Shown: positions 257 through 16,678 of the stretch, one piece after another
Numbering within the stretch: the first letter of the stretch is position 1
Layout: the number at the start of each line of letters is the position of its first letter
IMG/VR virus record: IMGVR_UViG_3300046507_000543
Location: 1 to 27,104 of that record
Reading direction: 5' to 3' (one strand)
DNA: 27,104 nucleotides
Source: a virus
Translations under genes and position numbers: made by a program
Notes under the pieces: model-generated
Database searches by the model: none
Seen by the model: the letters and a program-made list of their open reading frames with translations, nothing else
Told to the model about the DNA's origin: nothing

Positions 257-279
257 TAAGGGATGCAGGCGAAAATAGA

Positions 280-316
280 AGCCCCGGAGCCGCGAACCTT
301 CGGGGGCTTTGCTTTT
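280..316. terminator. Terminator-like hairpin
   Basis: CCCCGGAG at 282-289 pairs with CTTCGGGG around 298-306 (one bulged G, one G-U pair). On the plus strand it is followed by a T-rich stretch (TTTGCTTTTT), so it would terminate rightward transcription. On the minus strand it is followed by TTCTATTTT, so it may work both ways. It separates the minus-strand frame at 101-256 from the plus-strand gene at 386. Confidence 0.5.
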
Positions 317-385
317 TCTGAACTCTCCGGCCCGGCCTTCCCCGCCCCCCGGTGCTACGCTGAAATCTCCATGGAGGATTTCGCG

Positions 386-595
386 ATGCCAAACTCTGAC
401 CTGCTCCCTTCCCTGCTTTTCAAGATCAATGAAAACCAGCTCGCCCTCGAAGCGGCCATCCTGGAGCTCTCGAACTGGGTCGAGCAGCGCGGCGCGGCCG
501 ACGTCGCCGATAACGTCCGCGGCGCCTTGGACACCATTGATAAAAATGAAGAATTCATCAAGCTGACGCTCGCGGTGCTGATGACCCCCGAGTGA
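386..595 (+). CDS. Small acidic hypothetical protein (69 aa)
   Basis: This short acidic protein starts MPNSDLLPSLLF and is predicted to be mostly helical. It contains a segment rich in Leu, Glu and Ala (residues about 15-45) and an Asn-Val-Arg-Gly-Ala-Leu-Asp-Thr helix. The start at 386 is chosen because TGGAGGA lies about 8 bases upstream; an in-frame ATG at 371 overlaps that ribosome binding site and is less likely. I do not recognise a named domain. It is followed by a LexA-like operator and another plus-strand gene, opposite in direction to the late operon, so it may belong to the prophage end or to neighbouring host DNA. Confidence 0.6.
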   Translation: MPNSDLLPSLLFKINENQLALEAAILELSNWVEQRGAADVADNVRGALDTIDKNEEFIKLTLAVLMTPE

Positions 596-680: not shown

Positions 681-1007
681 GTGGACCACTACGACATCGA
701 AGACACCAGCGATTGGCTCGGCAGTCCGACCAGGCTGGAAACCGTCAAGCATTACGCCCATATGCTCGAGGAGGACATCGAAGAGCTGAGGCGGCAACTA
801 AATGCGGCAAAGGAAAACATTTTCACCCTTGTCGAAATGAACGACCAGCTGTCAGCCGAACTCCAAAAGAAGCGGATATGGATGGCGAACCTAGAGGCGG
901 AAACCACCGATCAGCTTGGCCAGATCCGGAGCCTGACAATGGTCCTGGATCAAAAAGAAAGGCTCATTCGAGATCTGCAGGCGGGCACACCGAACCAGAG
1001 GAGCTGA
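681..1007 (+). CDS. SOS-controlled coiled-coil hypothetical protein (108 aa)
   Basis: A 108-residue soluble protein beginning at GTG 681, with AAGG about 8 bases upstream. Residues about 1-20 are acidic (DHYDIEDTSDWLGSP). Residues about 22-100 form a long heptad-like helix (LEEDIEELRRQLNAAKENI, then a stretch with DQLSAELQKK and QIRSLTMVLDQKE), so a coiled-coil dimer is likely. There is no signal peptide or membrane segment. The LexA operator at 645-664 implies repression in normal growth and induction by DNA damage, the same signal that induces many prophages. No enzymatic motif is visible and no family is assigned; a structural or regulatory role is possible but unproven. Confidence 0.7.
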   Translation: MDHYDIEDTSDWLGSPTRLETVKHYAHMLEEDIEELRRQLNAAKENIFTLVEMNDQLSAELQKKRIWMANLEAETTDQLGQIRSLTMVLDQKERLIRDLQAGTPNQRS

Positions 1008-1092
1008 CAGGTACGGAAGACTCTCCAGATACTGCGAGATACACGACTTCGTTGCTGCGCTGAGTATGCCAAATGCCTAGCCAGTTCCACCG

Positions 1093-1230
1093 GTGTCCAG
1101 CAGAACAAATAGAACGGCCCTAGGGGAGTCGAGTGAGGCCTTCACATGGTTTAAAGTGGAACGCGAAATAGGCAATGTCCGCAATCAAGGTTATGAGTTG
1201 ATCAAGGCGGACAACGATTCACCTCCCTGA
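1093..1230 (+). CDS. Possible small protein (45 aa, GTG start)
   Basis: A 45-codon frame runs from GTG at 1093 to TGA at 1228-1230. The translation looks like a genuine small protein, with WFKVEREIGNVRNQGYEL near the centre and a charged tail. It lies between the SOS-controlled gene and the hydroxylase gene on the same strand. No good Shine-Dalgarno precedes it and no family is recognised. Chance coding is possible, so confidence is low. Confidence 0.35.
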   Translation: MSSRTNRTALGESSEAFTWFKVEREIGNVRNQGYELIKADNDSPP

Positions 1231-1292
1231 CTTTTGCATTGGACCTGACAAGCTGGGTCTCTGTAGACTCGCCCACAAAAAATGGGGCGGCA

Positions 1293-2171
1293 ATGAACGA
1301 TTTCTTGCAGTACATGATCCTGGTGGCTCAGGGCAACGCCAAAGCAGGGCTGGTCGCAGTCATGATTACGGGTGCCGTTTGGTTGTTTGAATGGTGGAAG
1401 CCAGCCGTAGCCGACCCTGGCTTACGCGGTAGGTGGCACAATGTCAAAGTCTTCATTTTATTGCTATTCGGCTTAACACTTGCAGCGCCTTTATTAAATC
1501 GATGCACGCAACTCTTGCCGAGCATTTCACTGCTCGACCGAATAGTGCCGGATTGGCAATCAAAAGGTATAGTCGGTGGCATCCTTGCCACCCTCATCTA
1601 TGCATTCATTTGGGATTTTTTCCAATATTGGACTCATCGATTTGAGCATAAATATGGTGCCCTGTGGGCATTTCATCGTGTGCATCACAGCGATGCGGAC
1701 ATGCATGCCTCAACCTCTCTTCGCCAAAGTGTTGGAGGTGCACTCATCGGCTATTTCCTTGCGCACTTACCCACATCAATAATATGTGGAGGAAACATGC
1801 TTCCATATCTTGGCTCGTTGATATTATTCAGCGGCTGGGGCTATTTCAATCATGCGAATGTCCGCGTCTCATTGGGCCCGCTCACCCGATTCATTTCAGG
1901 CCCACAGTGGCATAGACTGCATCACGGGAAAGAAACTCAGCATCACAATTCAAACTATGCTGCTTTTTTTCCTATTTTCGACCTGGTATTTGGGACATTA
2001 CGACTACCGAAAAAAGACGAGTGGGTAGAAACTGGCCTTCTAAATGATATATCTCCACAGAATTCGTTTAAACAAGCCTTTTTATCTTGGCGCAATAAAG
2101 ACACATCTATTTCCAACACACCTCACGCCCATTCTTCTGCAGAGCCCCTAGAGCCGCTTGGTCAGCGATGA
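1293..2171 (+). CDS. Sterol desaturase / fatty acid hydroxylase superfamily membrane protein
   Basis: Di-iron integral-membrane oxygenase of the fatty acid hydroxylase (sterol desaturase) superfamily, 292 aa. Hydrophobic segments lie near residues 19-33, 52-66, 93-112, 148-165 and 170-186. The histidine clusters are in the family order: H115-x3-H119, H128-x2-HH (131-132), H187, H207-x2-HH (210-211) and HH (217-218). Family members hydroxylate or desaturate lipids using O2 and electrons from a partner; the substrate here is unknown. ATG 1293 is preferred over an upstream in-frame TTG at 1239 because the membrane topology begins just after it; the only upstream purine run is a weak GGGG. It points away from the FkbM gene (tail to tail) and is probably lysogenic cargo acting on membrane or LPS lipid. 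The last 20 residues look non-conserved. Confidence 0.9.
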   Translation: MNDFLQYMILVAQGNAKAGLVAVMITGAVWLFEWWKPAVADPGLRGRWHNVKVFILLLFGLTLAAPLLNRCTQLLPSISLLDRIVPDWQSKGIVGGILATLIYAFIWDFFQYWTHRFEHKYGALWAFHRVHHSDADMHASTSLRQSVGGALIGYFLAHLPTSIICGGNMLPYLGSLILFSGWGYFNHANVRVSLGPLTRFISGPQWHRLHHGKETQHHNSNYAAFFPIFDLVFGTLRLPKKDEWVETGLLNDISPQNSFKQAFLSWRNKDTSISNTPHAHSSAEPLEPLGQR

Positions 2172-2370
2172 ACCCTGCGCCCACGGGGCCTGTATCGCCC
2201 CTTCCGGAAACGCTGGCGGTACCGGATACGTCCCCGCCACTGGTACGGTAACTTTCCGCGATGCCAGCCGGCGAGCAGAGCCAGCAGCACGACATGGACC
2301 GCCAACCGGCAAGCCGCCATGCGGGGCAGTTATGGCACGCCCTTGAAGAAGACGTGCTGGCCCAGAGATC

Positions 2371-3303
2371 TCACTTGGTTATTGATGACGTAAGGTGTTT
2401 CGCTAACCCACTCTTTCCGTAAACCAACTCCGCGACTGCGGCCTGTGCCAAGGCATCATCGTCAGTCTCTGTATGTTCTCGAAAGAACACGGCATCTGCC
2501 CAACCCAGCCGTTCGCCAGTAGTTGTCGGGTCTGGAACGGCTTCATACGCATAGCGGCACAGGTGCGTGAAATCGACGAAATAGAACCCACTTTTTGCCA
2601 GCAAGCGTTCAATTTCGGAAAAAACGGAAGTGCCTTTGTAAATCGGCGCAAACTCTACTTCGCAGTGGACGACATTGGTACGCTGCAAAACCTTTTGCGC
2701 TCCTAGAAGCGCCGGACCTTCGAAGCCTTGAATGTCAAGCTTCAGGAAATCAACTCGCCCAACATCGGATAACACGTCGTCAAGCCGCGATGTTTTCACC
2801 CGCTCCGTTCTAAGCGTTCTAAGTCCAGACAGGTGGTTGTGGTGGCTATTGAATTCTTCATTCAACGGGAGCAACGACGAAGTAGCATCGTCATTATTGA
2901 CGTAGAATGTCTGCTCTGATCCGTCACCTATGAAATGTGGCAACATTTCTATAGTGCCGTCCTCACGCTCGATGCGTTTGTTCTCCAGCGGTTCAAACCC
3001 GATGCAACGGTTCGGCAGCTGCATCAATGGCGCATAGATATGGCTTTCGTTGGCCAGATTTTGCGCCCCAACATCAACAATAACCAACGGTCTGGATGGT
3101 CTGTAACTAACGAGTGGCTTTGCCGTTTTCGGCAGCTTTGCCGACTTCAGAAGATACTCCTCGCTAGATGTGATCGAGTTCAAGACTTCTCGCGGCCCAT
3201 CATTGGCTGCCATCAGAGCGACGTAGTGCGCCAGTCCGCCTGGGTCGGGCTCCCGGGCCAATAGTGTCCGATAAAGTGTTGACACATATTCTTCGTCGTT
3301 CAT
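2371..3303 (-). CDS. FkbM-family methyltransferase with N-terminal DUF4214 domain
   Basis: A 310-residue fusion. Residues about 3-52 resemble DUF4214 (YVSTLYRTLLAREPDPGG, then SSEEY). Residues about 72-280 form an FkbM-type SAM-dependent O-methyltransferase: SAM motif IVDVGAQN (75-82), acidic motif FEPLE (103-107), the FkbM signature FLKLDIQGFEG (186-196) and EVEFAPIY (215-222). FkbM enzymes methylate hydroxyl groups on polyketides, glycans or lipids, and copies in surface-polysaccharide loci are common. ATG 3303 has a weak AAGG upstream and overlaps by ATGA the stop of a decayed frame (3300-3614), which suggests former translational coupling. With the nearby acyltransferase it suggests surface modification by the prophage. 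The target is unknown. Confidence 0.9.
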   Translation of the reverse strand: MNDEEYVSTLYRTLLAREPDPGGLAHYVALMAANDGPREVLNSITSSEEYLLKSAKLPKTAKPLVSYRPSRPLVIVDVGAQNLANESHIYAPLMQLPNRCIGFEPLENKRIEREDGTIEMLPHFIGDGSEQTFYVNNDDATSSLLPLNEEFNSHHNHLSGLRTLRTERVKTSRLDDVLSDVGRVDFLKLDIQGFEGPALLGAQKVLQRTNVVHCEVEFAPIYKGTSVFSEIERLLAKSGFYFVDFTHLCRYAYEAVPDPTTTGERLGWADAVFFREHTETDDDALAQAAVAELVYGKSGLAKHLTSSITK

Positions 3304-3614
3304 GCGGAAACCTTAGAGAGGATGGCCTTGTAAGTGGCGTTGATTGGTTGGGACGCCAAGGCATCGCTCAACACAACCCGCCGTGCACGCTTGACACACT
3401 ATCAATGCATCGTGGACCTTTACAAGGCGACATCGGCGCAAAAACCCACGTTCAGCGCGATGCCAAGTGGCACGTCGGCGGCGATCGGGTGGGTCACCAT
3501 ACGCGATTTGTACGCTGTGATCGCAGTCCAGTGCGGCGAGTATGCAAGTTCTTGCCACAGACGCTCCTGATCGCTCCGTCTGCGGATGGTGTCCCTCTCC
3601 AACAACCTCGGCAT
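3300..3614 (-). pseudogene. Decayed gene upstream of FkbM (formerly directly after Rz)
   Basis: The frame starts MPRLLERDTIRRR at ATG 3614 and reads well through AAYKSRM-like and IAADVPLGIALNVGF stretches to a TAA near 3420. Two more in-frame stops follow, and then the same frame resumes as ARRVVLSDALASQPINATYK and ends at a TGA overlapping the FkbM ATG. Between the stops a second frame (LVKVHDALIVC) reads well, so a pair of compensating indels is the simplest explanation. Its first codons align with the start of the truncated frame at 5126, which places it directly after Rz in an ancestral phage. I do not recognise the family. Confidence 0.5.
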
Positions 3615-3689
3615 GCATCAGTGTAATTGCTTGGCAATATCAACATTCGCCTGTTGCTAGTCTGGCCTAGGGCCGGGCGTGGTCAGCAA
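3599..3689. repeat. Direct repeat, decayed copy of the lysis-cassette end
   Basis: Direct repeat of 5111-5203. Over the first 57 bases (3599-3655 against 5111-5167) I count 46 identities without gaps. Shared words include CTTGGCAA (3630-3637 / 5142-5149), GCCTGTT (3649 / 5161) and GGTCAGCAA (3681 / 5195). The two copies flank the acyltransferase gene. Confidence 0.7.
3627..3689 (-). pseudogene. Remnant of the Rz-like spanin gene 3' end
   Basis: This stretch aligns with the last codons of the intact Rz-like gene at 5139-5203 (offset 1512 bases, changing by 2 at the far end). Translation gives D-H-A-R-P and then an in-frame TAG, with a frameshift after it; the native stop codon TAA has become CAA. 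It is therefore non-functional. The divergence from the intact copy suggests origin from a related phage and not a recent duplication. Confidence 0.6.
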
Positions 3690-3759
3690 GTGCTACCCAT
3701 CACTCGTTTCGCTTGATCATCAGCACACACTGTTACGCCGTGGGCAACTGACTATTTAA

Positions 3760-3993
3760 CAACAGCACTGGTGGCATGGTGGGCATCTACGACCGCAGAC
3801 CAGTGACGCTATCGTCCAGAACTGGCCCAAGGAGGCGTTTGGCTGGTTCGAATTTGACCGGGCCATCGGCAAGGAAAGAGGCATCCATGCCAGGCCGGCT
3901 TTTTATGACGATTGCAACTCTTGTTTTGCTACGATATCCGTCTCGGTGTTCTGCTTCCTTACCCTAGATTGCAGCCGCTTCCTCATCGCATGA
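3760..3993 (+). pseudogene. Protein-like plus-strand fragment without a start
   Basis: Between the Rz remnant and the acyltransferase there is a plus-strand frame open from 3760 to TGA 3991-3993, with no ATG. Its middle part reads like real protein (IVQNWPKEAFGWFEFDRAIG, then GIHARPAFYDD). The neighbouring frame just upstream reads STGGMVGIYDRR, as if one base had been lost or gained. The 3' third overlaps the acyltransferase end on the other strand and is probably meaningless. It may be a gene fragment left by recombination. No family is recognised. Confidence 0.2.
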
Positions 3994-4961
3994 ACTGGGC
4001 GCTCTACCAAATAATGCCCAATGGCACCTAGTATAAATACGCATGATAGGTATATACCGAGGGAGTCAACTGCTGTAAAGACACCGTAGTTTGCAGCGGC
4101 GTCAATCACCAGCACATGGCACAAGAATGCTCCATAAGATACATTACCCAGCCACTCGTCAAAGCCCCTTCGCTTTAAATTTGAAAGTATAAACACAAGA
4201 GGAATACCAACAATCAGGCCAAGCAATACAGCTTTGTTGTAAGTTGCCAACTTATCCATCATCGAGCAAGCAACATATAACGCCAAAGTAAATGCATAAA
4301 TCAGCAGCAGCAAAACTCCTGCCTGTTTTTTACCATTGTTATAGTCGTACATCAGGGAACCGCTTAGGAAAACGAACAGCACACCTGGAAGAAAAAAGTA
4401 ACCATACACAGGTTGATTTACGACATCCAGAGCTGCCAATGCGAAAAGCACTGAGCTGGAGATCACTGCAACCAAGCGGGATCGCAGAAAAAGTATAAAA
4501 GGAAAAATAATATAGAACTGCATCTCTAAGCCCAACGACCATGCTGGATGGATTAGAATGTACCGCGTTAGCCCGCCGAACTCTGAAAAAATATGGAACA
4601 CGCTTCCTGATAGCACAGCCCAATTGAGAGGTACGATAGCTAGGCTTAAGAGGAAGTTTTTAATTGAGAACGGGTCTATTGGATACCCAGCTCCCTGAAA
4701 TCCGGAATATTCAAAAAACAAGACGTACAACAGGTAAAAAAATATGAACTGCGGATAGATACGCAAAAGACGATCAGCATAAAATTTTGGAATAGTAGCG
4801 TAACTAGTAAACTTCGTCCTTAATAGGCCGGTCATGACAAACCCAGAGAGCATGAAAAATATCGTCACGGCGCAGATTCCGAAATTTATCCCGAAAATTA
4901 CTGTGCCCGTATGACCGATAGCAACGAAAAATGCCAAAAGCAAGCGCAAAGTCCCAAACAT
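3903..4961 (-). CDS. Acyltransferase 3 (OafA-type) membrane protein, probable O-antigen/LPS acetylase
   Basis: A 352-residue polytopic membrane protein of the acyltransferase-3 family, with about ten hydrophobic segments. Family hallmarks are R6 and H17 in TM1 (LRLLLAFFVAIGHTG), FFMLSGFVM (35-43), YADRLLRIYP (61-70), WSLGLEMQFYIIFPF in the middle, and YGAFLCHV near the end. There is no C-terminal SGNH domain. OafA/Oac-type proteins move acetyl groups across the inner membrane onto O-antigen or other glycans; phage-borne versions cause serotype conversion and can block superinfection. The gene is visibly richer in A+T than the structural genes, lies just beyond the lysis genes on the late strand, and is bracketed by the repeat copies. 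The ATG at 4961 has no good Shine-Dalgarno. Confidence 0.93.
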   Translation of the reverse strand: MFGTLRLLLAFFVAIGHTGTVIFGINFGICAVTIFFMLSGFVMTGLLRTKFTSYATIPKFYADRLLRIYPQFIFFYLLYVLFFEYSGFQGAGYPIDPFSIKNFLLSLAIVPLNWAVLSGSVFHIFSEFGGLTRYILIHPAWSLGLEMQFYIIFPFILFLRSRLVAVISSSVLFALAALDVVNQPVYGYFFLPGVLFVFLSGSLMYDYNNGKKQAGVLLLLIYAFTLALYVACSMMDKLATYNKAVLLGLIVGIPLVFILSNLKRRGFDEWLGNVSYGAFLCHVLVIDAAANYGVFTAVDSLGIYLSCVFILGAIGHYLVERPVHAMRKRLQSRVRKQNTETDIVAKQELQSS

Positions 4962-5015
4962 TTTAGGCGATCATCTAGTGAAAAAAGTGAGCAACGATAC
5001 CTTACTCGCCAATAT

Positions 5016-5126
5016 TCATCTAGATGGTAGCGCTGGTATTAAATTGGATCCAAGATGCATGTTAACACCAAGCTTTGCTGGCAATTCGTGATGGCACAGA
5101 ACGACCTTCTCCGACAACTTTGTCAT
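5016..5126 (-). pseudogene. Truncated 5' end of the gene that once followed Rz
   Basis: A 36-codon frame begins 13 bases past the Rz stop (MTKLSEKVVLCHHELP) and stops at TGA 5016-5018, just before the acyltransferase. Its first bases align with the start of the decayed gene at 3614 (MPRLLERDT). It is best read as the front of a gene cut by acquisition of the acyltransferase segment. No Shine-Dalgarno is visible. Confidence 0.4.
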
Positions 5127-5203
5127 GAATCAGCGTAATTACTTGGCAACATCATCATATGCCTGTTCGCAAGTCAGTCCCCGGGCTCGGGCTTGGTCAG
5201 CAA
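5111..5203. repeat. Direct repeat, intact copy of the lysis-cassette end
   Basis: Partner of 3599-3689. It covers the Rz 3' end and the first bases of the following truncated frame. Both copies face the same way, about 1.5 kb apart, with the acyltransferase between them. Confidence 0.7.
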
Positions 5204-5654
5204 TTGCAGCCAGGTCGCCCGCTCGCTGGTCAGTGCGCTTGAGCACGTCGGCAAGCACCATTGCGGCGCGGGCAGCTGCCTTGCTTGCGGCGGCAGTGCA
5301 GGAATTACCGCTGGCTTGACTGGCTGCGAGTTGAGCTGCAAGGGCGTCGGCTGCCACGCGCAGGCTGTCAGCAGAAGTGCGAGCGGCAGCAGCATCAGCA
5401 GTTGCTTGATCGATCGTGCGTTGACCATCTTGAATTGCCTTGTTGATTAATTGTTGGCGGGTTTGTTCTTTGGCTCGCTCGGTGGACTCATTGGCGGCTA
5501 GAGCCTTAGCGTCCAGAGTGTTGCGGTCGTTCCACAGGCTCTGCCATTCAGTATCTTTCACCGACAGGCCGTGATGGTAGGCGCCGAACAGTGCACCGAC
5601 CGCCAGCAGCACCGCAGCTATATAAGGAAGCAGTCGGAGCAGGATGGCGTTCAT
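5139..5654 (-). CDS. Rz: Rz-like i-spanin (DUF2514-type lysis protein)
   Basis: Inner-membrane spanin of 171 aa, which joins the inner and outer membranes for the last step of lysis together with the embedded Rz1. It has an N-in signal anchor at residues about 8-26 (PYIAAVLLAVGALFGAYHHG), followed by a long periplasmic helix rich in Ala, Gln and Glu (about 35-165), as expected for the coiled coil of i-spanins. The general organisation matches the Pseudomonas phage Rz-like (DUF2514) proteins. Its ATG overlaps the endolysin stop by 4 bases (ATGA), so the lysis genes are translationally coupled. The GC-rich, Ala-rich coding allows Rz1 in the +1 frame. Confidence 0.85.
   Translation of the reverse strand: MNAILLRLLPYIAAVLLAVGALFGAYHHGLSVKDTEWQSLWNDRNTLDAKALAANESTERAKEQTRQQLINKAIQDGQRTIDQATADAAAARTSADSLRVAADALAAQLAASQASGNSCTAAASKAAARAAMVLADVLKRTDQRAGDLAAIADQARARGLTCEQAYDDVAK
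5174..5428 (-). CDS. Rz1: Rz1-like o-spanin lipoprotein, embedded in Rz
   Basis: An 84-residue frame lies wholly inside the Rz-like gene in another reading frame. It has a basic N-terminus (MVNARSIKQ), a Leu-rich signal core and a lipobox LTAC with the lipidated Cys at residue 23. The mature part is short and Pro/Gln-rich (WQPTPLQLNSQPVKPAVIP), as in Rz1 outer-membrane lipoproteins. Embedded architecture is well known for Rz/Rz1 pairs in lambda. An AAGG lies about 8 bases before the ATG. The C-terminus (ending KPEPGD) is longer than in lambda Rz1 (about 60 residues as precursor), so the exact function of the last 25 residues is open. Confidence 0.8.
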   Translation of the reverse strand: MVNARSIKQLLMLLPLALLLTACAWQPTPLQLNSQPVKPAVIPALPPQARQLPAPQWCLPTCSSALTSERATWLQLLTKPEPGD

Positions 5655-6202
5655 GCCAGCACCCTCAGCGCGGTGTTGTAGAATGCTTGCCGCTCGGCCA
5701 GGCCATTGGTACCACCATTGATGCGCCGTGTTACTCCAACAAAATCTTCAGAATCGGCCAATACGTTCAGATTTCGCGAATTCCAGAACCACGCCGCCGA
5801 CTTGCAAGCCCACTCTGCCTGCTCGAGCAGTTCAGGCGTGCGCAACAAACGGTCGTCGCCGAACAGCGCCTTGCTGCAGGCCAGATAGTTGTCACGGCCC
5901 GTTATTTGAATCAAACCCCTGCCCCTGTACTTCTGCCCGTCCCCGTCCGCCACTGGCGTATTGCCAAGACGTTTAGCCAGCGGGCCGGTGTCGTACTTGC
6001 TCAGGTACTGGTCGCCGCCGATCTCCTTCACGTAGCGGAATTGGCCCGACTCATGTCCCACCTGGGCAATGAAAGCCGCCATGCGCAACCTGGTATTGAT
6101 CTGGTACCGCTCCATCGCCAAATTGAGCGCAGACACAAAAACGCCGGCTTGTTTGCCGACGTTCGGGAGGATCTGCAGCAGCTGCTGCTGAGTGAGAGGC
6201 AT
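5651..6202 (-). CDS. Endolysin, glycoside hydrolase family 19 (chitinase-like muramidase)
   Basis: A 183-residue single-domain GH19 lysozyme that cleaves the peptidoglycan glycan strand. Catalytic glutamates fit E51 (FIAQVGHESGQF) and E60 (YVKE). Substrate-cleft motifs are YRGRGLIQITGRDNY (92-106) and TRRINGGTNGL (158-168). There is no signal peptide or SAR segment, so it should depend on a holin for export. CTGGAG lies 6 bases before the ATG at 6202. It is the first gene of the lysis cassette, preceded by a terminator-like hairpin (6218-6241) and overlapping Rz by 4 bases. Confidence 0.93.
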   Translation of the reverse strand: MPLTQQQLLQILPNVGKQAGVFVSALNLAMERYQINTRLRMAAFIAQVGHESGQFRYVKEIGGDQYLSKYDTGPLAKRLGNTPVADGDGQKYRGRGLIQITGRDNYLACSKALFGDDRLLRTPELLEQAEWACKSAAWFWNSRNLNVLADSEDFVGVTRRINGGTNGLAERQAFYNTALRVLA

Positions 6203-9505: not shown

Positions 9506-12500
9506 TTACCCCAGATAGCCAAGCCGGACACGCAACACATTGTTGGCGTCGTAGACCGAGACGTTCTGCGAGTTGATCACCAGCCGCCCCTGTCCCGGGA
9601 CAATGCCGTTGATCTCTAGCGTTCCGTCTTTATAGAGAACCCAGCCTTGCTGGCCGGCGATGTAGTTGGTGGAACTGATGTAGCTGCCGATCTTGGCATT
9701 GGTGATGGTGCCGTCCTGAATGAACGCAGAGTTCATGAAGACCTGGCCGCCCTGCACTGCAAACGGAACCGAAAGGGCACCGCCAGCCATGCTGTTGACG
9801 ACGGCAAACCGATCTGCGGCGACCAGAAACTGGCTTTGCAGTCCAGCACCGGTGTTCTCGATGCCCAACCCGGCGCCCGCGGCAACATACTTGCCGTCGG
9901 CAGTGACCTGCATCTTCACCGACCACATCACGTTGAGCTTTCCGGCGGTGTCGGCATAGGCCGTTGACGTCTGCTGGATGGCAGCCGTGTTTTGCCCTGC
10001 CGTTACAGACAGCTGATCAATCTTCGTCGCCGTCGCAGACTGATTGGTCGCAACCACCTGTTCCAGCTCGGTGATGTTGGCCGTGTTCGCTCCTATCTGG
10101 GCCTCAAAGCCAGCGAGCCGCTGCGCAAAGGCTTCAGTTTCAGAGGTGCGAACCTTGGATTCCGAAGCGATTTCGGCGGTACTGGTCCAGCCTTTCAGCG
10201 CGTCCGCCAGATCGCCTTCCCCGTTGTCGTCTCGCGACGATGCTTGAAGCGCCTGAAACGCTGTGGCCTGGGCGGTGACCTTCCCTTCCGTGGAAGTGAC
10301 CCGCGTATCCAGCGAATTGAGCGCCGTCGCCTGACCGCTGTTGACACCCTCGACATCGCCCACCCGGTTTGTCAGTTGCGTGAGGCTGTTGCCTTGACTG
10401 GTGAGCGTGGTGCCTTGTGAGGTGACGGTGCTGCTCAGCGAGCTGATGGCCGCGCTCAAGGCTTCCGCGTTGCGCTCGTTCGAAGGCGCGTAGGCCGTGG
10501 CGACAGAACCTTCCTGAAACTGGACGTTGTCCACTTCCATCCACATGTCCATGGTCCCGCCGCTGCGGTTGAACATCCGGCCGGCGTAGATGCCGCCGAA
10601 TGCTGCACCTGCCGGAGCCACCCCAGTGAGGACATAGCGGGTGAACGTCGTGGTCAGTGCGACCTCAGCAAGCGTCATCGTGCTGAGCACGGTGCTGCCC
10701 GCAGCGTCGAGGAACTGCACGTAGGTCGCCAAGCGTACCGTTGCAGCCGAGCCTCTGGCCCACACGCTCAAGGTGTACGGCTGACCCGGCGTGACCTTCG
10801 GCCGGGCGGCCTCCAACGAGTTGAAGATCACGTCGGAATACTGCCCGTTGGTGGCGGCCAAGCGAGTGATCCTTAGCGCCTTAGTGCTGGATGGCAGCGC
10901 CGAATCCACAATGGATGGCGTTGGCACGGCGGTACCGCCGACGCTCCAGTTCAGGGGGCGAGTGGTACTGCCCGCTGCCAGCGTCTCGAACGAGGAGTTC
11001 GGCAGCAGGTTGTCGCCGCCAATGGCGTTCAAGCTGTTGGTCAGCGAGGTGATCGAACTGCCCTGACTGCTGATCGTCCCTTCCGCCGCCGTCACTCGAG
11101 TGGTCAGACTACTGACCGCCGAGGCATCGGCCTTGGTCGCGACCTGCGACAGCGCGGAGGCCGCTGCAGCCGCTGCATCGGTGGCCACCTTATCGGTCAC
11201 CGCGACCCACGCCGAGCCGGTCCAGCGCTTCGGCGTGTTCGCCCCGCCGGTGATGTCGATCCACAGGTTCTGCGCCAGCTGATCGGCCGCCGCCGGTGCT
11301 CCGGTTTGCACGATCACCTTGCCCTTACCGCCGGCCAAAGTGTTCGCCGCGTTCGCTGCTGTCTGCGCGGCAGTCACGTTGGTGTTGGTGGTGGTCAGGC
11401 TGTTGTTCAGCGAGGTGATCAACGACGACTGACTGGTGTTCACACCTTCGGCCGCTGCCACCCTGGCATCCAGCGCCGACACGGCAGAGGCGTTAGCCAG
11501 GCTCTGGTCGAAACTGTTACCCGTAACGAACGGCGACGGATCAGTTACGCCGTTGACCACCGGCTCGACCATGATCTGATCCAGCCAAAGCACGCGACCG
11601 GTAACGTTAGAGCGGTTGGTCTGGATACTCAGCTGCGCCTTGTCGCCGCTGAAGCTGCCGGCGTTGGACACGTCCATCACGACCGAATATCGCGCCCAGG
11701 TATCGGTCACAGTCAGCAACGTGGCTGGACCGGTATTGAAGCCCGAGCCTGCCGCGTTCAACACCCGCAGGTAACTGGCAATCTGATGCCCAGCCACGCT
11801 GGCCCGAGCCTTGAACGACACGATGTATTTCTGCGCCTTGAATGACATGTTGCAGCCGGCCGCAGTCAGCGACGGGCCCAACGTAACCGTCGTGTTGGTG
11901 GTGTTCGTGGACTCGACCCGCAAGGCATAGCCGCGCAGGGTCGCCGCGTCCGCCTCTGTAGTCACCGTGAACGACCCTGTAGTGGTCACTGGCGCAGACG
12001 GCCCGAACACCGTGTACTCAGCCGGCAGCAGGTTGACCCCGCTGGCCCCAAGCCCCCCAATCGCCGCCTGAACACTGGTCAACGCAGCACCTTGCGCCGT
12101 CAGGCTGTCGCCCTGTTGACTCACGGTGTTGCTCAATGCCGACACGCTGTCCGCGCTCGCCTTGGTGTTGGCCACCGACAGGGCATTGGCGGCTGCCGTT
12201 GCCGCATCGGTTGCCACCTTGTCGGTCACCGCGACCCACGCCGAGCCGGTCCAGCGCTTCGGCGTGTTCGCCCCGCCGGTGATGTCGATCCACAGGTTTT
12301 GCGCCAGTTGATCGGCCGCCGCCGGTGCGCCGGTTTGCACGATCACCTTGCCCTTACCGCCGGCCAAAGTGTTCGCCGCGTTCGCTGCCGTCTGCGCGGC
12401 AGTCACGTTGGTGTTGGTCGTGGTCAGGCTGTTGTTCAGCGAAGTGAGCGAGGCGCTCTGACTGGTCAGGGTTGTGCCCTGCTGAGTCACGGTGCTGGTC

Positions 12501-15500
12501 AGCGAGCGCAAGGCATCCGACGTGGCCGCCTGATCGGATGCCAGCGCCAGCGTGCTATCTCTCCAGCCCGACACGGCCGACCCGAGTTCCAGCTGGGCGC
12601 GGGTGAATTCCACGAAGCCAGCTGTGACGCCGCCGCCGAAAATGCGGAAGAACGACGTGACCTTCGCGGTGTTGGCTGGCAGGTTCGCAAACAGCAGAGT
12701 GGCGCGCTGGGTAGAGCCGGTGGCCACGATCAGCGACGTGGACGGTACCGACAGCACGTTGCCTGCCGCGTTGTTGGCTTCCAGATAAATCCGAACCTGT
12801 AAGCCTGCAGTCGCGCGGAAGTAAACGGACAGCGCGACAGAGGTACCCGCCTGCACAGCCGGTCTTACCGCAGCGACCGGGATGATCGAGCGGTACAGGT
12901 TGGTGTCGTTCAGCCCGGTTACGTCGATGCGCTGGGCGTTCTCGCTGGCGTTGATCCACGACGGCACCAACGAGTAGACGCCGGTAGAAGCACCAGGCGT
13001 GATCGGTGTGTTGACAGCCCACCCATCCGCCACACCGGTAACGTTGCCCAACTTGACGAACGCTGGGTTGTAGAACAGGTTCTCGCTACCTACATCGCCG
13101 ATGCTGTTGGTCAGGCTGACGATCGAGCTGCCTTGCGAACTAATCAGTCCCTCTGCAGCGGTGACCTGTGTACCCAGGCTGGTGACCGCCGAGGCATCTG
13201 CTTTGGTCACGACCTGCGACAGTGCCGAAGCGGCCGCAGCGGCAGCGTCGGTGGCGATCTTGTCCGTTACGGCGGCCCAGGCACTGCCGGTCCAACGCTT
13301 CGGCGTGTTTGCCCCGCCGGTGGTATCGATCCACAGATTCTGCGCCAACTGATCGGCCGCCGCCGGTGCGCCAGTTTGCACGATCACCTTGCCCTTGCCG
13401 CCGGCCAAGGTGTTCGCCGCGTTCGCCGCGTTTTGCGCGGCAGTCACGTTACCGTTGGTGGTGGTCAGGCTGTTGTTCAACCCGGTGATCGAAGTGCCTT
13501 GGCTGCTGATCGTCCCTTCCGCCGAGGTTACCCGGGTGGTCAAGCTGGTCAGCGCTGCCGCATCGGCCTTGGTGTTGGCCACCGACAAGGCGTTGGCGGC
13601 TGCCGTTGCCGCATCGGTGGCCACCTTGTCGGTCACGGCTGCCCAAGCCGAACCCGTCCAGCGCTTCGGCGTGTTCGCCCCGCCAGTGATATCAATCCAC
13701 AGGTTCTGCGCCAACTGATCGGCCGTCGCCGGCGCAGCGGTCTGCACGATCACCTTGCCCTTGCCGCCGGCCAAAGTGTTCGCCGCGTTCGCCGCGTTTT
13801 GCGCAGCAGTCACGTTACCGTTGGTGGTGGTCAGGCTGTTGTTCAGCCCGGTGATCGAGCTACCCTGGCTGCTGATCGTCCCTTCAGCCGCTGTCACGCG
13901 GCTGTCCAGGCTGTTGACTGCCGAGGCATCGGCCTTGGTGTTGGCCACCGACAAGGCATTGGCTGCCGCTGCCGCCGCATCGGTGGCCACCTTGTCCGTC
14001 ACCGCTGCCCACGCCGAACCCGTCCAGCGCTTCGGCGTGTTCGCCCCGCCGGTGATATCAATCCACAGGTTCTGCGCCAACTGATCGGCCGCCGCCGGCG
14101 CAGCGGTTTGCACGATCACCTTGCCCTTGCCGCCGGCCAAGGTGTTCGCCGCGTTCGCCGCGTTTTGCGCGGCGGTCACGTTACCGTTGGTGGTGGTCAG
14201 GCTGTTGTTCAGGCCGGTGATGGCCGTGCCTTGGCTGGTATTGACCCCCTCGATGCTGGTGATTTTGGTTTCAGTGGTGTTGACCCGAGCAGCCAAACCG
14301 TTCGACTCGGACACTACTTGACCAACATCCACCCAATAGGTCGCATTCGGCGGCGACTTCGCGCCGCTGGCATCCGCCGGTACCGCGATTTTGGCTTGGT
14401 ACAGACGATCACTCAGGCGCGTTGAGGCGCCGGCGGCGTAGGCTTTTTCCTTCTGGTATTCGGCCGACTTCGCGAGTGTGGAGACCTGATCGATTTGCAA
14501 CTGAAGGTCGGTTTGAGTTTCGCTGAACGCCTGCTGCGCTTCGCTCAGCGCGACTTGCCCTTCGTTCACCAGCTCCTGCAGGTGATCCGTGACTTCGCCG
14601 ATTTGCTCGCCCAGCTCATTCACTCGATTGTTGACTGATCCCGGCAGAGTTGATGGGCCGTCAATCAGCTCGATCCGCCCCAGCAGATGCTGGCCGAGGT
14701 GAGAATCCGTTATTTCCCCCTCCAGCGCATCCAGGTAAGCACCGACGTCATTCGACGTTGATGCGGGTACGTACAGAAATGCGCTTTTGCCATAAGCATT
14801 TGACGACCGAACGAAGTAGTAATAGTTGGTGTAGAAGCCGAGTCCGGCATGAGTAAAGGAAAGACCCTGCCCCAGATACACCGCATCATCCGGGTCAGAT
14901 GCTGGAACCGTGCTGAAGAAGTACTCATAAGTCCCGCCATTCAGCCCGCGCAAGGTGTTGGACGGAATCAAGGTGATCGAATCAATCGATGACTGCACCA
15001 CACAGGCTTCAGGAATGGGCGGACCATTCACGCTGACTGAAATAGTCGCCTCGCCCGACCGAGCCATCGGCCCCACCGCCGCCACACTCATCGTGTAGCT
15101 ACCCGAAGGCAAGCCATTGATAGCCCGCTCGGTGGACGTCGCCGGAACATTGTGCGATTGGATCGCGGTCGCACCCTGGCGAACGATGACGATGTATTCC
15201 TTCACAATGCCGGACGGAGGCACCCAGGAGAGGATGCCCTGTGTCACCTCGGCCGATGCATCCTGCGTCCACTTGAGGTTTGTGGGAGAACCCAGGCCAC
15301 CGGTCGGTAGGTTGATAAAGCCGATCGGATTGTAGGGCTGGCCAACTGCATCACTGAAAATGGCCGGCTCATACTGCGCCACCGAGACACTGCAGCCATC
15401 TTTATCACCCATCGACCAATTGGTGACGATGAACTCCCCCAGGATGTTCAGCGACGGCAGGTTGACCCTGATGACCCGACCAGGCCGGCAGTTGTAGCCG

Positions 15501-16678
15501 GAAAGGTTCATGGGAATGCTGATGGTCCCACCCGCCCGCCGGCGGCGCAGTTCGATGTTTGCCAGGCGCTGAGCCTGGTACGGATCAGTGACATAGGAGA
15601 AGGTCAGCGTCTCCGCCGCCTCCCCACCGTCTTCGACAACCCACTGATCCACTTGCACTTCGGGATAGTCGGTTTCGGTCCAGGACTGCGAAGGGTCAAT
15701 GAAGGTGCCGCGCACCGTGTTGATGGCAGAATCGTTGGTTGGCTCGGTGCTGCCAGTGATGGTGCCCACCACCATGTCTTCGGTGATCTCGAAATCATAC
15801 GGACCGTAGTACGCGCCCGTCTGGAGCATCCAGCGACCACCTACACGGATAAGCTTGCCCGCGCACGCCGCCTCAAGTTTCTGCAATACACCTGTGCGTT
15901 GCTCGTCAGCGCCGATTACGCAAGATGTCCGGTAGCGCGGACTGGCCGATCCGTCAGCGTTGGTGACCGTCTCATCGCAGACGTTGGCTGCACTGGCAAA
16001 AGTCGAAAACACAATCTCATCATCCGGCACACCGCAGCGCGTGCGCAGGTACCAGAGAATGTGCAGCGCCGTGTTTGCGGAATACCCGGATGTCCCAGTG
16101 CGCGGGTCATAAATATCGTTGCGGCCACGAACCACGAAACGCGCATCCGGAATGCCCGATGGAAACTTCTCGGCGCTGTACCGGAAAGACACGCGCACGA
16201 ACGAGAGCCCGCGGCCGATCTGGCTTTCCTTCCACCCCGGGCAATTGGCAAGAAGGAAGGCGTTTACTTGCGTTGGATTGACGACCAGTTCATAGCTGGC
16301 GAACTCGCCGAATGTACCGATCTCCTCTTCGCCCAGGTAGATATTTTCCAGCGCGTCGATGCCGCCCTCACAGAGGACGTAGACCATATGCAACCATTCG
16401 CCGTCTCCGACAGTGCCGGACTGCTCCTGGCCCCAGGCAAGCACGCCACCGGTTGCAGCACGGCCCAGGATGAAGCGCACTGGAGCCTTTGAAGAGCGCA
16501 GTGTCTGCGCTGAGGGCTCGTTGTCGCGAAGTGGCGATTTGGTGTTGAGCTTTTCCTGCTGCTCGGCAGCATAAAAGGCCAGGCCGGCACCGATGATCGC
16601 ACCGACAATATTGCCTTGAGCAAAACCAATTACCGCGCCGACGGCAACTTGGGCAAGTTTTTTTACGCCAGAACTCAT
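9506..16678 (-). CDS. J: Central tail fibre / host-specificity protein J (2390 aa)
   Basis: This lambda gpJ-type protein forms the tail-tip hub and central fibre that contacts the host. Residues about 1-40 hold a hydrophobic Gly/Ala-rich stretch (VGAVIGFAQGNIVGAIIGAG). The tail-hub region runs to about 460, and an FN3-like domain is at about 463-550. A coiled coil (about 676-750) precedes a shaft made of five near-identical modules (about 821-900, 943-1022, 1065-1144, 1412-1491, 1755-1834), joined by heptad linkers of the SLTTRVTAAEGTISSQG type. Three different jelly-roll, carbohydrate-binding-like inserts occur at about 1194-1378, 1543-1721 and 1886-2066, each opening with an ENLF/NLLP-type motif. 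The C-terminal 230 residues resemble DUF1983 and the J tip. Lambda J is 1132 aa, so this one is about twice as long. The ATG overlaps the upstream stop by ATGA. Confidence 0.95.
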   Translation of the reverse strand: MSSGVKKLAQVAVGAVIGFAQGNIVGAIIGAGLAFYAAEQQEKLNTKSPLRDNEPSAQTLRSSKAPVRFILGRAATGGVLAWGQEQSGTVGDGEWLHMVYVLCEGGIDALENIYLGEEEIGTFGEFASYELVVNPTQVNAFLLANCPGWKESQIGRGLSFVRVSFRYSAEKFPSGIPDARFVVRGRNDIYDPRTGTSGYSANTALHILWYLRTRCGVPDDEIVFSTFASAANVCDETVTNADGSASPRYRTSCVIGADEQRTGVLQKLEAACAGKLIRVGGRWMLQTGAYYGPYDFEITEDMVVGTITGSTEPTNDSAINTVRGTFIDPSQSWTETDYPEVQVDQWVVEDGGEAAETLTFSYVTDPYQAQRLANIELRRRRAGGTISIPMNLSGYNCRPGRVIRVNLPSLNILGEFIVTNWSMGDKDGCSVSVAQYEPAIFSDAVGQPYNPIGFINLPTGGLGSPTNLKWTQDASAEVTQGILSWVPPSGIVKEYIVIVRQGATAIQSHNVPATSTERAINGLPSGSYTMSVAAVGPMARSGEATISVSVNGPPIPEACVVQSSIDSITLIPSNTLRGLNGGTYEYFFSTVPASDPDDAVYLGQGLSFTHAGLGFYTNYYYFVRSSNAYGKSAFLYVPASTSNDVGAYLDALEGEITDSHLGQHLLGRIELIDGPSTLPGSVNNRVNELGEQIGEVTDHLQELVNEGQVALSEAQQAFSETQTDLQLQIDQVSTLAKSAEYQKEKAYAAGASTRLSDRLYQAKIAVPADASGAKSPPNATYWVDVGQVVSESNGLAARVNTTETKITSIEGVNTSQGTAITGLNNSLTTTNGNVTAAQNAANAANTLAGGKGKVIVQTAAPAAADQLAQNLWIDITGGANTPKRWTGSAWAAVTDKVATDAAAAAANALSVANTKADASAVNSLDSRVTAAEGTISSQGSSITGLNNSLTTTNGNVTAAQNAANAANTLAGGKGKVIVQTAAPATADQLAQNLWIDITGGANTPKRWTGSAWAAVTDKVATDAATAAANALSVANTKADAAALTSLTTRVTSAEGTISSQGTSITGLNNSLTTTNGNVTAAQNAANAANTLAGGKGKVIVQTGAPAAADQLAQNLWIDTTGGANTPKRWTGSAWAAVTDKIATDAAAAAASALSQVVTKADASAVTSLGTQVTAAEGLISSQGSSIVSLTNSIGDVGSENLFYNPAFVKLGNVTGVADGWAVNTPITPGASTGVYSLVPSWINASENAQRIDVTGLNDTNLYRSIIPVAAVRPAVQAGTSVALSVYFRATAGLQVRIYLEANNAAGNVLSVPSTSLIVATGSTQRATLLFANLPANTAKVTSFFRIFGGGVTAGFVEFTRAQLELGSAVSGWRDSTLALASDQAATSDALRSLTSTVTQQGTTLTSQSASLTSLNNSLTTTNTNVTAAQTAANAANTLAGGKGKVIVQTGAPAAADQLAQNLWIDITGGANTPKRWTGSAWVAVTDKVATDAATAAANALSVANTKASADSVSALSNTVSQQGDSLTAQGAALTSVQAAIGGLGASGVNLLPAEYTVFGPSAPVTTTGSFTVTTEADAATLRGYALRVESTNTTNTTVTLGPSLTAAGCNMSFKAQKYIVSFKARASVAGHQIASYLRVLNAAGSGFNTGPATLLTVTDTWARYSVVMDVSNAGSFSGDKAQLSIQTNRSNVTGRVLWLDQIMVEPVVNGVTDPSPFVTGNSFDQSLANASAVSALDARVAAAEGVNTSQSSLITSLNNSLTTTNTNVTAAQTAANAANTLAGGKGKVIVQTGAPAAADQLAQNLWIDITGGANTPKRWTGSAWVAVTDKVATDAAAAAASALSQVATKADASAVSSLTTRVTAAEGTISSQGSSITSLTNSLNAIGGDNLLPNSSFETLAAGSTTRPLNWSVGGTAVPTPSIVDSALPSSTKALRITRLAATNGQYSDVIFNSLEAARPKVTPGQPYTLSVWARGSAATVRLATYVQFLDAAGSTVLSTMTLAEVALTTTFTRYVLTGVAPAGAAFGGIYAGRMFNRSGGTMDMWMEVDNVQFQEGSVATAYAPSNERNAEALSAAISSLSSTVTSQGTTLTSQGNSLTQLTNRVGDVEGVNSGQATALNSLDTRVTSTEGKVTAQATAFQALQASSRDDNGEGDLADALKGWTSTAEIASESKVRTSETEAFAQRLAGFEAQIGANTANITELEQVVATNQSATATKIDQLSVTAGQNTAAIQQTSTAYADTAGKLNVMWSVKMQVTADGKYVAAGAGLGIENTGAGLQSQFLVAADRFAVVNSMAGGALSVPFAVQGGQVFMNSAFIQDGTITNAKIGSYISSTNYIAGQQGWVLYKDGTLEINGIVPGQGRLVINSQNVSVYDANNVLRVRLGYLG
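11177..11414 (-). repeat. J module repeat 5 (residues about 1755-1834)
   Basis: Encodes LNNSLTTTNTNVTAAQTAAN followed by the AGGKGKVIVQTGAPAAADQL core and the WIDITGG/KRWTGSAW segment. It is 1029 bases (343 codons) away from the previous copy because an insert domain lies between them. Confidence 0.9.
12205..12443 (-). repeat. J module repeat 4 (residues about 1412-1491)
   Basis: Same module as the other four, nearly identical in DNA to repeat 5 (both use the TNTNVTAAQT variant). It is 1041 bases (347 codons) away from repeat 3. Confidence 0.9.
13246..13484 (-). repeat. J module repeat 3 (residues about 1065-1144)
   Basis: Third tandem copy, in exact 366-base (122-codon) register with repeat 2. 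It carries IDTTGG in place of IDITGG and a Gly in VQTGAPA. Confidence 0.9.
13612..13850 (-). repeat. J module repeat 2 (residues about 943-1022)
   Basis: Second tandem copy, 366 bases from both neighbours. It carries a Thr change in VQTAAPATADQL. Confidence 0.9.
13977..14216 (-). repeat. J module repeat 1 (residues about 821-900)
   Basis: First copy in translation order: GLNNSLTTTNGNVTAAQNAA, then the AGGKGKVIVQTAAPAAADQL core and WTGSAWAAVTDKVATDAA. It directly follows the coiled-coil region. Confidence 0.9.

Follow-up and report, generated by a model that had tools for sequence, protein, structure and literature searches.

Dead lysis-gene ends border the cargo genes behind Rz in a Pseudomonas-type temperate phage

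Phage mosaicism and the existence of cargo (moron) slots are well established, the bor gene that follows Rz in phage λ being a familiar case. Cargo genes are known to move; the steps by which they do so are usually invisible. The right end of a Pseudomonas-type temperate phage, analyzed here as a window of 27,104 nucleotides (positions 1 to 27,104 of IMG/VR record IMGVR_UViG_3300046507_000543), raises the question of whether such steps can be read from a single genome. An acyltransferase gene is found there between two copies of the end of Rz, one intact and the other decayed (Table 1). The initial annotation of the sequence described this arrangement as a fossil of cargo exchange and took the divergence of the two copies as a sign that two related phages had been joined. 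How did the two ends come to lie on either side of a cargo gene?

Table 1. Features at the right end of the phage (window coordinates).
Feature	Positions	Strand	Basis
Gene A, small conserved right-end gene	263-595	+	opposes, and lies downstream of, Rz in many relatives
Gene B, coiled-coil-like right-end gene	681-1007	+	same position in relatives
SRAP (SOS-response-associated peptidase) relic 1	1009-1208	+	nhmmer E 6e-13 and 9e-13; tblastn
Fatty-acid hydroxylase family gene	1239-2171	+	PF04116 E 7.5e-25
Scar of other lysis cassette: last codons of SleB-type hydrolase and following DNA	2221-2377	-	match to L115
FkbM methyltransferase with DUF4214 domain	2371-3303	-	PF05050 E 1.4e-18; PF13946 E 4e-9; phrog_8156
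Small gene after Rz relic (MPRLLERD...), orphan	3313-3614	-	sequence
Decayed Rz 3' end (DUF2514 family), first repeat copy	3593-3753	-	alignment; Rz-end profile
SRAP relic 2, middle and C-terminal pieces	3762-3875	+	nhmmer E 1.4e-11 and 5.6e-4
Acyltransferase-3 family gene	3903-4961	-	PF01757 E 9.5e-24; phrog_3333 O-acetyltransferase E 1.2e-40
Short frame (MTKLSEK...)	5016-5126	-	sequence and alignment
Second repeat copy: end of intact Rz and start of next frame	5105-5207	-	alignment
Intact Rz (i-spanin)	5139-5654	-	PF10721 E 7e-29; phrog_312 E 9e-47
GH19-type endolysin of active lysis cassette	5651-6202	-	PF00182; phrog_181 E 5e-73

The repeat is real. A local alignment of 3593-3693 with 5105-5207 has 82 of 103 columns identical (79.6%) and two 1-base gaps; its score of 97 is far above the best value obtained with 1000 dinucleotide shuffles (32), and blastn of the window against itself returns the pair with an E value of 3.2e-17. 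A plain repeat scan of the window caught just a 20-nt core. Both copies are in the same orientation (minus strand in gene terms), at an offset of 1512-1514, and each comprises, in the direction of the gene, the last Rz codons, the stop, and then 7 codons at the start of the next frame. The right-hand copy terminates an Rz gene whose match to the DUF2514 profile (PF10721/phrog_312) spans the entire protein and which is overlapped by an Rz1-like frame at 5174-5428. The left-hand copy is damaged, as had been noticed initially: the Rz stop has changed from TAA to CAA, two single bases have been lost opposite 5187 and 5168, and in-frame stops are present. A profile built from 88 Rz 3' ends follows the relic to about position 3753, through internal deletions (E 5e-8).

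In order to assign the differences to one copy or the other, the base at each differing site was read in the Rz ends of 66 outgroup loci. Judged by the 25 outgroups listed, of these 66, the fossil branch gained 7-10 changes as against 0-2 for the intact branch, and the mismatches are distributed over the three codon positions as 6, 3 and 5, of 23 each. The outgroups had been fetched using the intact copy and are biased towards it; this bias cannot explain, however, the several fossil changes at columns that are invariant in all 50-66 outgroups covering them. Because the changes sit on the fossil branch, the two copies were near-identical when one of them died, and since the mismatches affect all codon positions, the left copy decayed after it had ceased to function as a gene. 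The divergence of 20%, being almost entirely decay of the fossil copy, therefore cannot separate a two-phage join from a duplication. It is a measure of how long the relic has been dead and not of an origin in another phage. Divergence as an argument for a two-phage join fails the relative-rate test and was dropped.

Other evidence comes from the genes on either side. Relatives were fetched with the Rz protein as query. In these loci Rz is followed by cargo and then by an opposing block in which SRAP (whole or as a fragment) comes first and genes B and A come last, with a 252-aa gene standing between SRAP and gene B in some cases. Among the 26 measurable loci, Rz is separated from the A/B/SRAP block by 21 bp to 3.8 kb (the largest distance, in L043), and the interval is occupied by differing genes, acyltransferases filling it in several relatives. 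In four loci (L003, L007, L025 and L040) the slot is empty, with 21-39 bp between Rz and gene B. A fixed place at which cargo is present or absent and varies among related phages is what characterizes a moron slot.

The empty versions bear in part on an earlier expectation, namely that phages should exist in which Rz is followed directly by the gene beginning MPRLLERD or MTKLSEK. Slots without cargo do exist, but it is gene B that adjoins Rz in them; no phage with Rz followed by either of the two frames was found, and a pattern for the common Rz/next-gene junction had zero matches in IMG/VR. The accompanying proposal, that one gene family once stood behind Rz, draws on a short match: only about the first 7 codons are common to the two frames, with 17 of 22 bases identical after the start codon, and the databases add no support to these 22 bases. 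The MPRLLERD gene could not be placed in a known family, as searches of phages, IMG/VR, 399 Pseudomonas genomes, Pfam, PHROGs and NCBIfam all failed to yield a homologue. The gene is open for 64 codons (3614-3420), after which one apparent frameshift leads to a 100-aa reading. As no homologue was found with which to compare it, the gene can be called decayed, as in the initial description, only tentatively. Near its end, the frameshift-joined reading contains CQACTAGCVERC, which resembles a metal-binding cysteine cluster. Short matches of the region 3304-3902 to L098, L099 and L100 sit in unrelated genes and were taken as chance. As a separate observation, a small related protein (MYFLITRMREKGVA...) occurs just after Rz in L044, L063, L073, L012, L014, L029, L039, L049 and L055, phages that are otherwise different.

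In the window, both borders of the slot, SRAP and the Rz end, are doubled. From gene A towards Rz, the order is A, B, SRAP relic 1, fatty-acid hydroxylase, SleB scar, FkbM, small gene, Rz scar, SRAP relic 2, acyltransferase and intact Rz, and the cargo differs between the two segments. Both SRAP/YedK-family relics match intact SRAP significantly and in colinear order, and both are broken. Relic 1 retains an N-terminal and a C-terminal piece, the middle having been lost in a deletion of about 470-500 bp; an intact SRAP occupies its place in L115 and L116. Relic 2, which lies no more than 10 bp from the Rz relic, is 91% identical over 67 nt to the intact SRAP of L115, its second piece being a weak match (E 5.6e-4). 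The two relics differ by about a third, as judged from a very short overlap of 41 bp.

The loci L115 and L116, retrieved with the fatty-acid hydroxylase as query, carry A, B, intact SRAP and the hydroxylase in the order of the window, with 84-90% DNA identity in parts (86% for gene A in L115, where the hydroxylase protein is 78% identical). They differ from the window in their intact SRAP, in the lysis gene that is present (SleB in L115, GH19 in L116) and in being without an Rz-tail relic of the window's type. Comparison with L115 revealed the remains of another lysis gene: window positions 2221-2365 are 80% identical over 149 nt to L115 4961-5109, where an intact SleB-type hydrolase gene ends and the DNA behind it begins. 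The last SleB codons can still be read at 2377-2333 (QVRSLGQHVFFKGVP, then stop), and L116 has a shorter match to this stretch directly behind the hydroxylase gene. Given this SleB tail, it appears that another lysis cassette formerly terminated the left segment. The possibility that 2107-2330 represents the tail of Rz2, the Rz of the SleB-type cassette, was considered, and no convincing match was obtained. L115 itself has, besides the intact SleB-type hydrolase (5499-5074), SleB fragments at 978-808 and 3472-3387; with SleB pieces on both sides of its A-B-SRAP-hydroxylase block, it constitutes another layered right end.

Comparable scars are found in relatives. With Rz2 from L094 as query, orphan C-terminal pieces of 22-69 codons were detected in eight loci (L020, L022, L042, L053, L083, L103, L107 and L108), the end in L022 recurring in L082. 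All eight lie downstream of an active DUF2514 Rz, on its strand, with just 0-39 codons of open frame before them. A further Rz2 end in L092 is at the edge of the locus, where its context is cut. As controls, 50 shuffled queries gave 0 matches and the reversed query gave 1, in L094. Weak long Rz2 matches in L053 and L111 turned out to be the active Rz itself. In L042, an IMG/VR contig, and L107, a locus from a Pseudomonas genome, an acyltransferase lies between the active Rz and the orphan Rz2 end, on the same strand, an arrangement like that of the window. Because these orphan ends belong to another Rz family, they cannot be copies of the active Rz, and their origin is explained more simply if the late block was replaced than if the gene had duplicated itself. 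A search of other loci for a second DUF2514 Rz tail gave no clear case and two weak matches, in L085 and L089.

These findings lead us to consider it probable that swaps of late-gene blocks by illegitimate recombination leave old lysis-gene ends behind as scars, and that the slot in the window was rebuilt at least twice in this manner. The slot would correspond to the interval between the Rz end and the conserved opposing right-end block (A, B, SRAP). At each event, illegitimate recombination would fuse the late block of a related phage, comprising cargo and lysis genes, to the resident right end at a point within the last lysis gene, and the gene so displaced would leave its 3' end as a scar. 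One could envision the SleB tail as the first scar, joined to FkbM, the small gene and Rz, and the Rz tail as the second, fused, at a distance of some 10 bp or less, to the middle part of another SRAP; the second join would have brought in the acyltransferase and the present Rz. The scars themselves would be inert and subject to neutral decay. The order of these events and a source in two phages are what we infer from the layering, and no donor phage carrying either single layer together with the small gene was found. There is good support for describing the region as a fossil of cargo exchange, namely the doubled SRAP, the scar of a third lysis-gene end and the comparable scars in relatives.

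The most serious competitor is a tandem duplication within one lineage, whose unit would start in mid-SRAP, include the cargo and stop at the Rz end, followed by decay of one Rz and replacement of one cargo, which we regard as rather unlikely. It would account for the doubling of both borders in the same order and for the near-identity of the Rz copies at the time of inactivation; an internal duplication would be expected to yield two Rz ends belonging to one family and nearly identical at first, as those of the window were, and this counts against a join. The difference between the SRAP relics likewise fits a decay of both at the rate of the Rz relic. However, the genes between the doubled borders differ, which is not the picture of a simple tandem duplication: the segments have no cargo in common, an extra cargo replacement is needed, and the SleB scar and the heterologous Rz2 scars of relatives are left unexplained. 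It is because of the different cargo and these heterologous scars that we favor a join, while duplication with later cargo replacement could account for the second step, since the two Rz ends share one family and a nearly identical past.

Neither of two further explanations seems at all likely. The acyltransferase sits between the repeat copies and differs in base composition, as might be the case if a small mobile element carrying it had inserted after Rz and the duplicated target formed the flanking repeat, but there is no transposase among the ORFs and no terminal inverted repeat in the segment, a SRAP relic lies inside the presumed element, and we know of no transposon target duplications of 100 bp or more. 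Joining of two related phages in one contig by the assembler deserves equally little credence: although the window, a viral record of 27 kb from IMG/VR, may be a fragment, a repeat of 80% identity is unlikely to confuse an assembler, the relic shows decay, and scars of a similar kind are seen in other records as well as in isolate genomes.

As for the cargo, the acyltransferase has a G+C content of about 0.41-0.45, compared with about 0.57-0.62 for the lysis genes, a contrast that is weaker for FkbM and the fatty-acid hydroxylase. Its relatives in Pseudomonas genomes are 35-41% identical. FkbM has no strong relative at E 1e-20 in 389 Pseudomonas genomes and perhaps, for this reason, came from outside Pseudomonas; the search for donors of FkbM and the acyltransferase found no useful viral relatives. 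The combination of acyltransferase-3, FkbM and fatty-acid hydroxylase families suggests envelope modification, and the phage probably retains this cargo as a means of changing the host surface in the lysogen. There are phage O-acetyltransferases that block superinfection (PMC9558356). The window's gene shares with Oac/OacA of Shigella phages the acyltransferase-3 Pfam family, the PHROG O-acetyltransferase assignment and the location on a phage (PMC9558356); as a serotype-converting enzyme that acetylates the host O-antigen and changes phage adsorption, it is a candidate by family match.

The window has in common with the morons and mosaicism of lambdoid phages that foreign-looking genes, varying from phage to phage, separate the end of the lysis genes from the block that follows, and that joins through illegitimate recombination are the presumed route. 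In contrast to the lambdoid case, the joins appear to be marked by dead lysis-gene ends, two in one genome, and the borders are doubled. Since related phages have similar scars, we view this as one variant of the usual shuffling of phage genes, not as a new machine; the process is ordinary, the record unusually legible. A literature search, thin on subscription journals, found no papers on Rz remnants. It is tempting to speculate, with appreciably less confidence than for the block swaps themselves, that the exchange of whole late blocks in these Pseudomonas prophages has its preferred breakpoint at the Rz/SRAP border, and that orphan C-terminal ends of spanins and hydrolases form a layered record of past lysis and cargo modules. 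Dead lysis ends would then mark the joins between old and new blocks, and their decay could serve to order the exchange events; if this were general, cargo acquisitions could be counted, and earlier lysis types named, from single genomes. Elsewhere, a search for tRNA genes found none in the window, and the region 9506-16678 encodes a tail-tip protein of 2390 aa, within which nearly identical repeats (NSLTTTNGNVTAAQNAANAANTLAGGKGKVIVQT...) recur several times.
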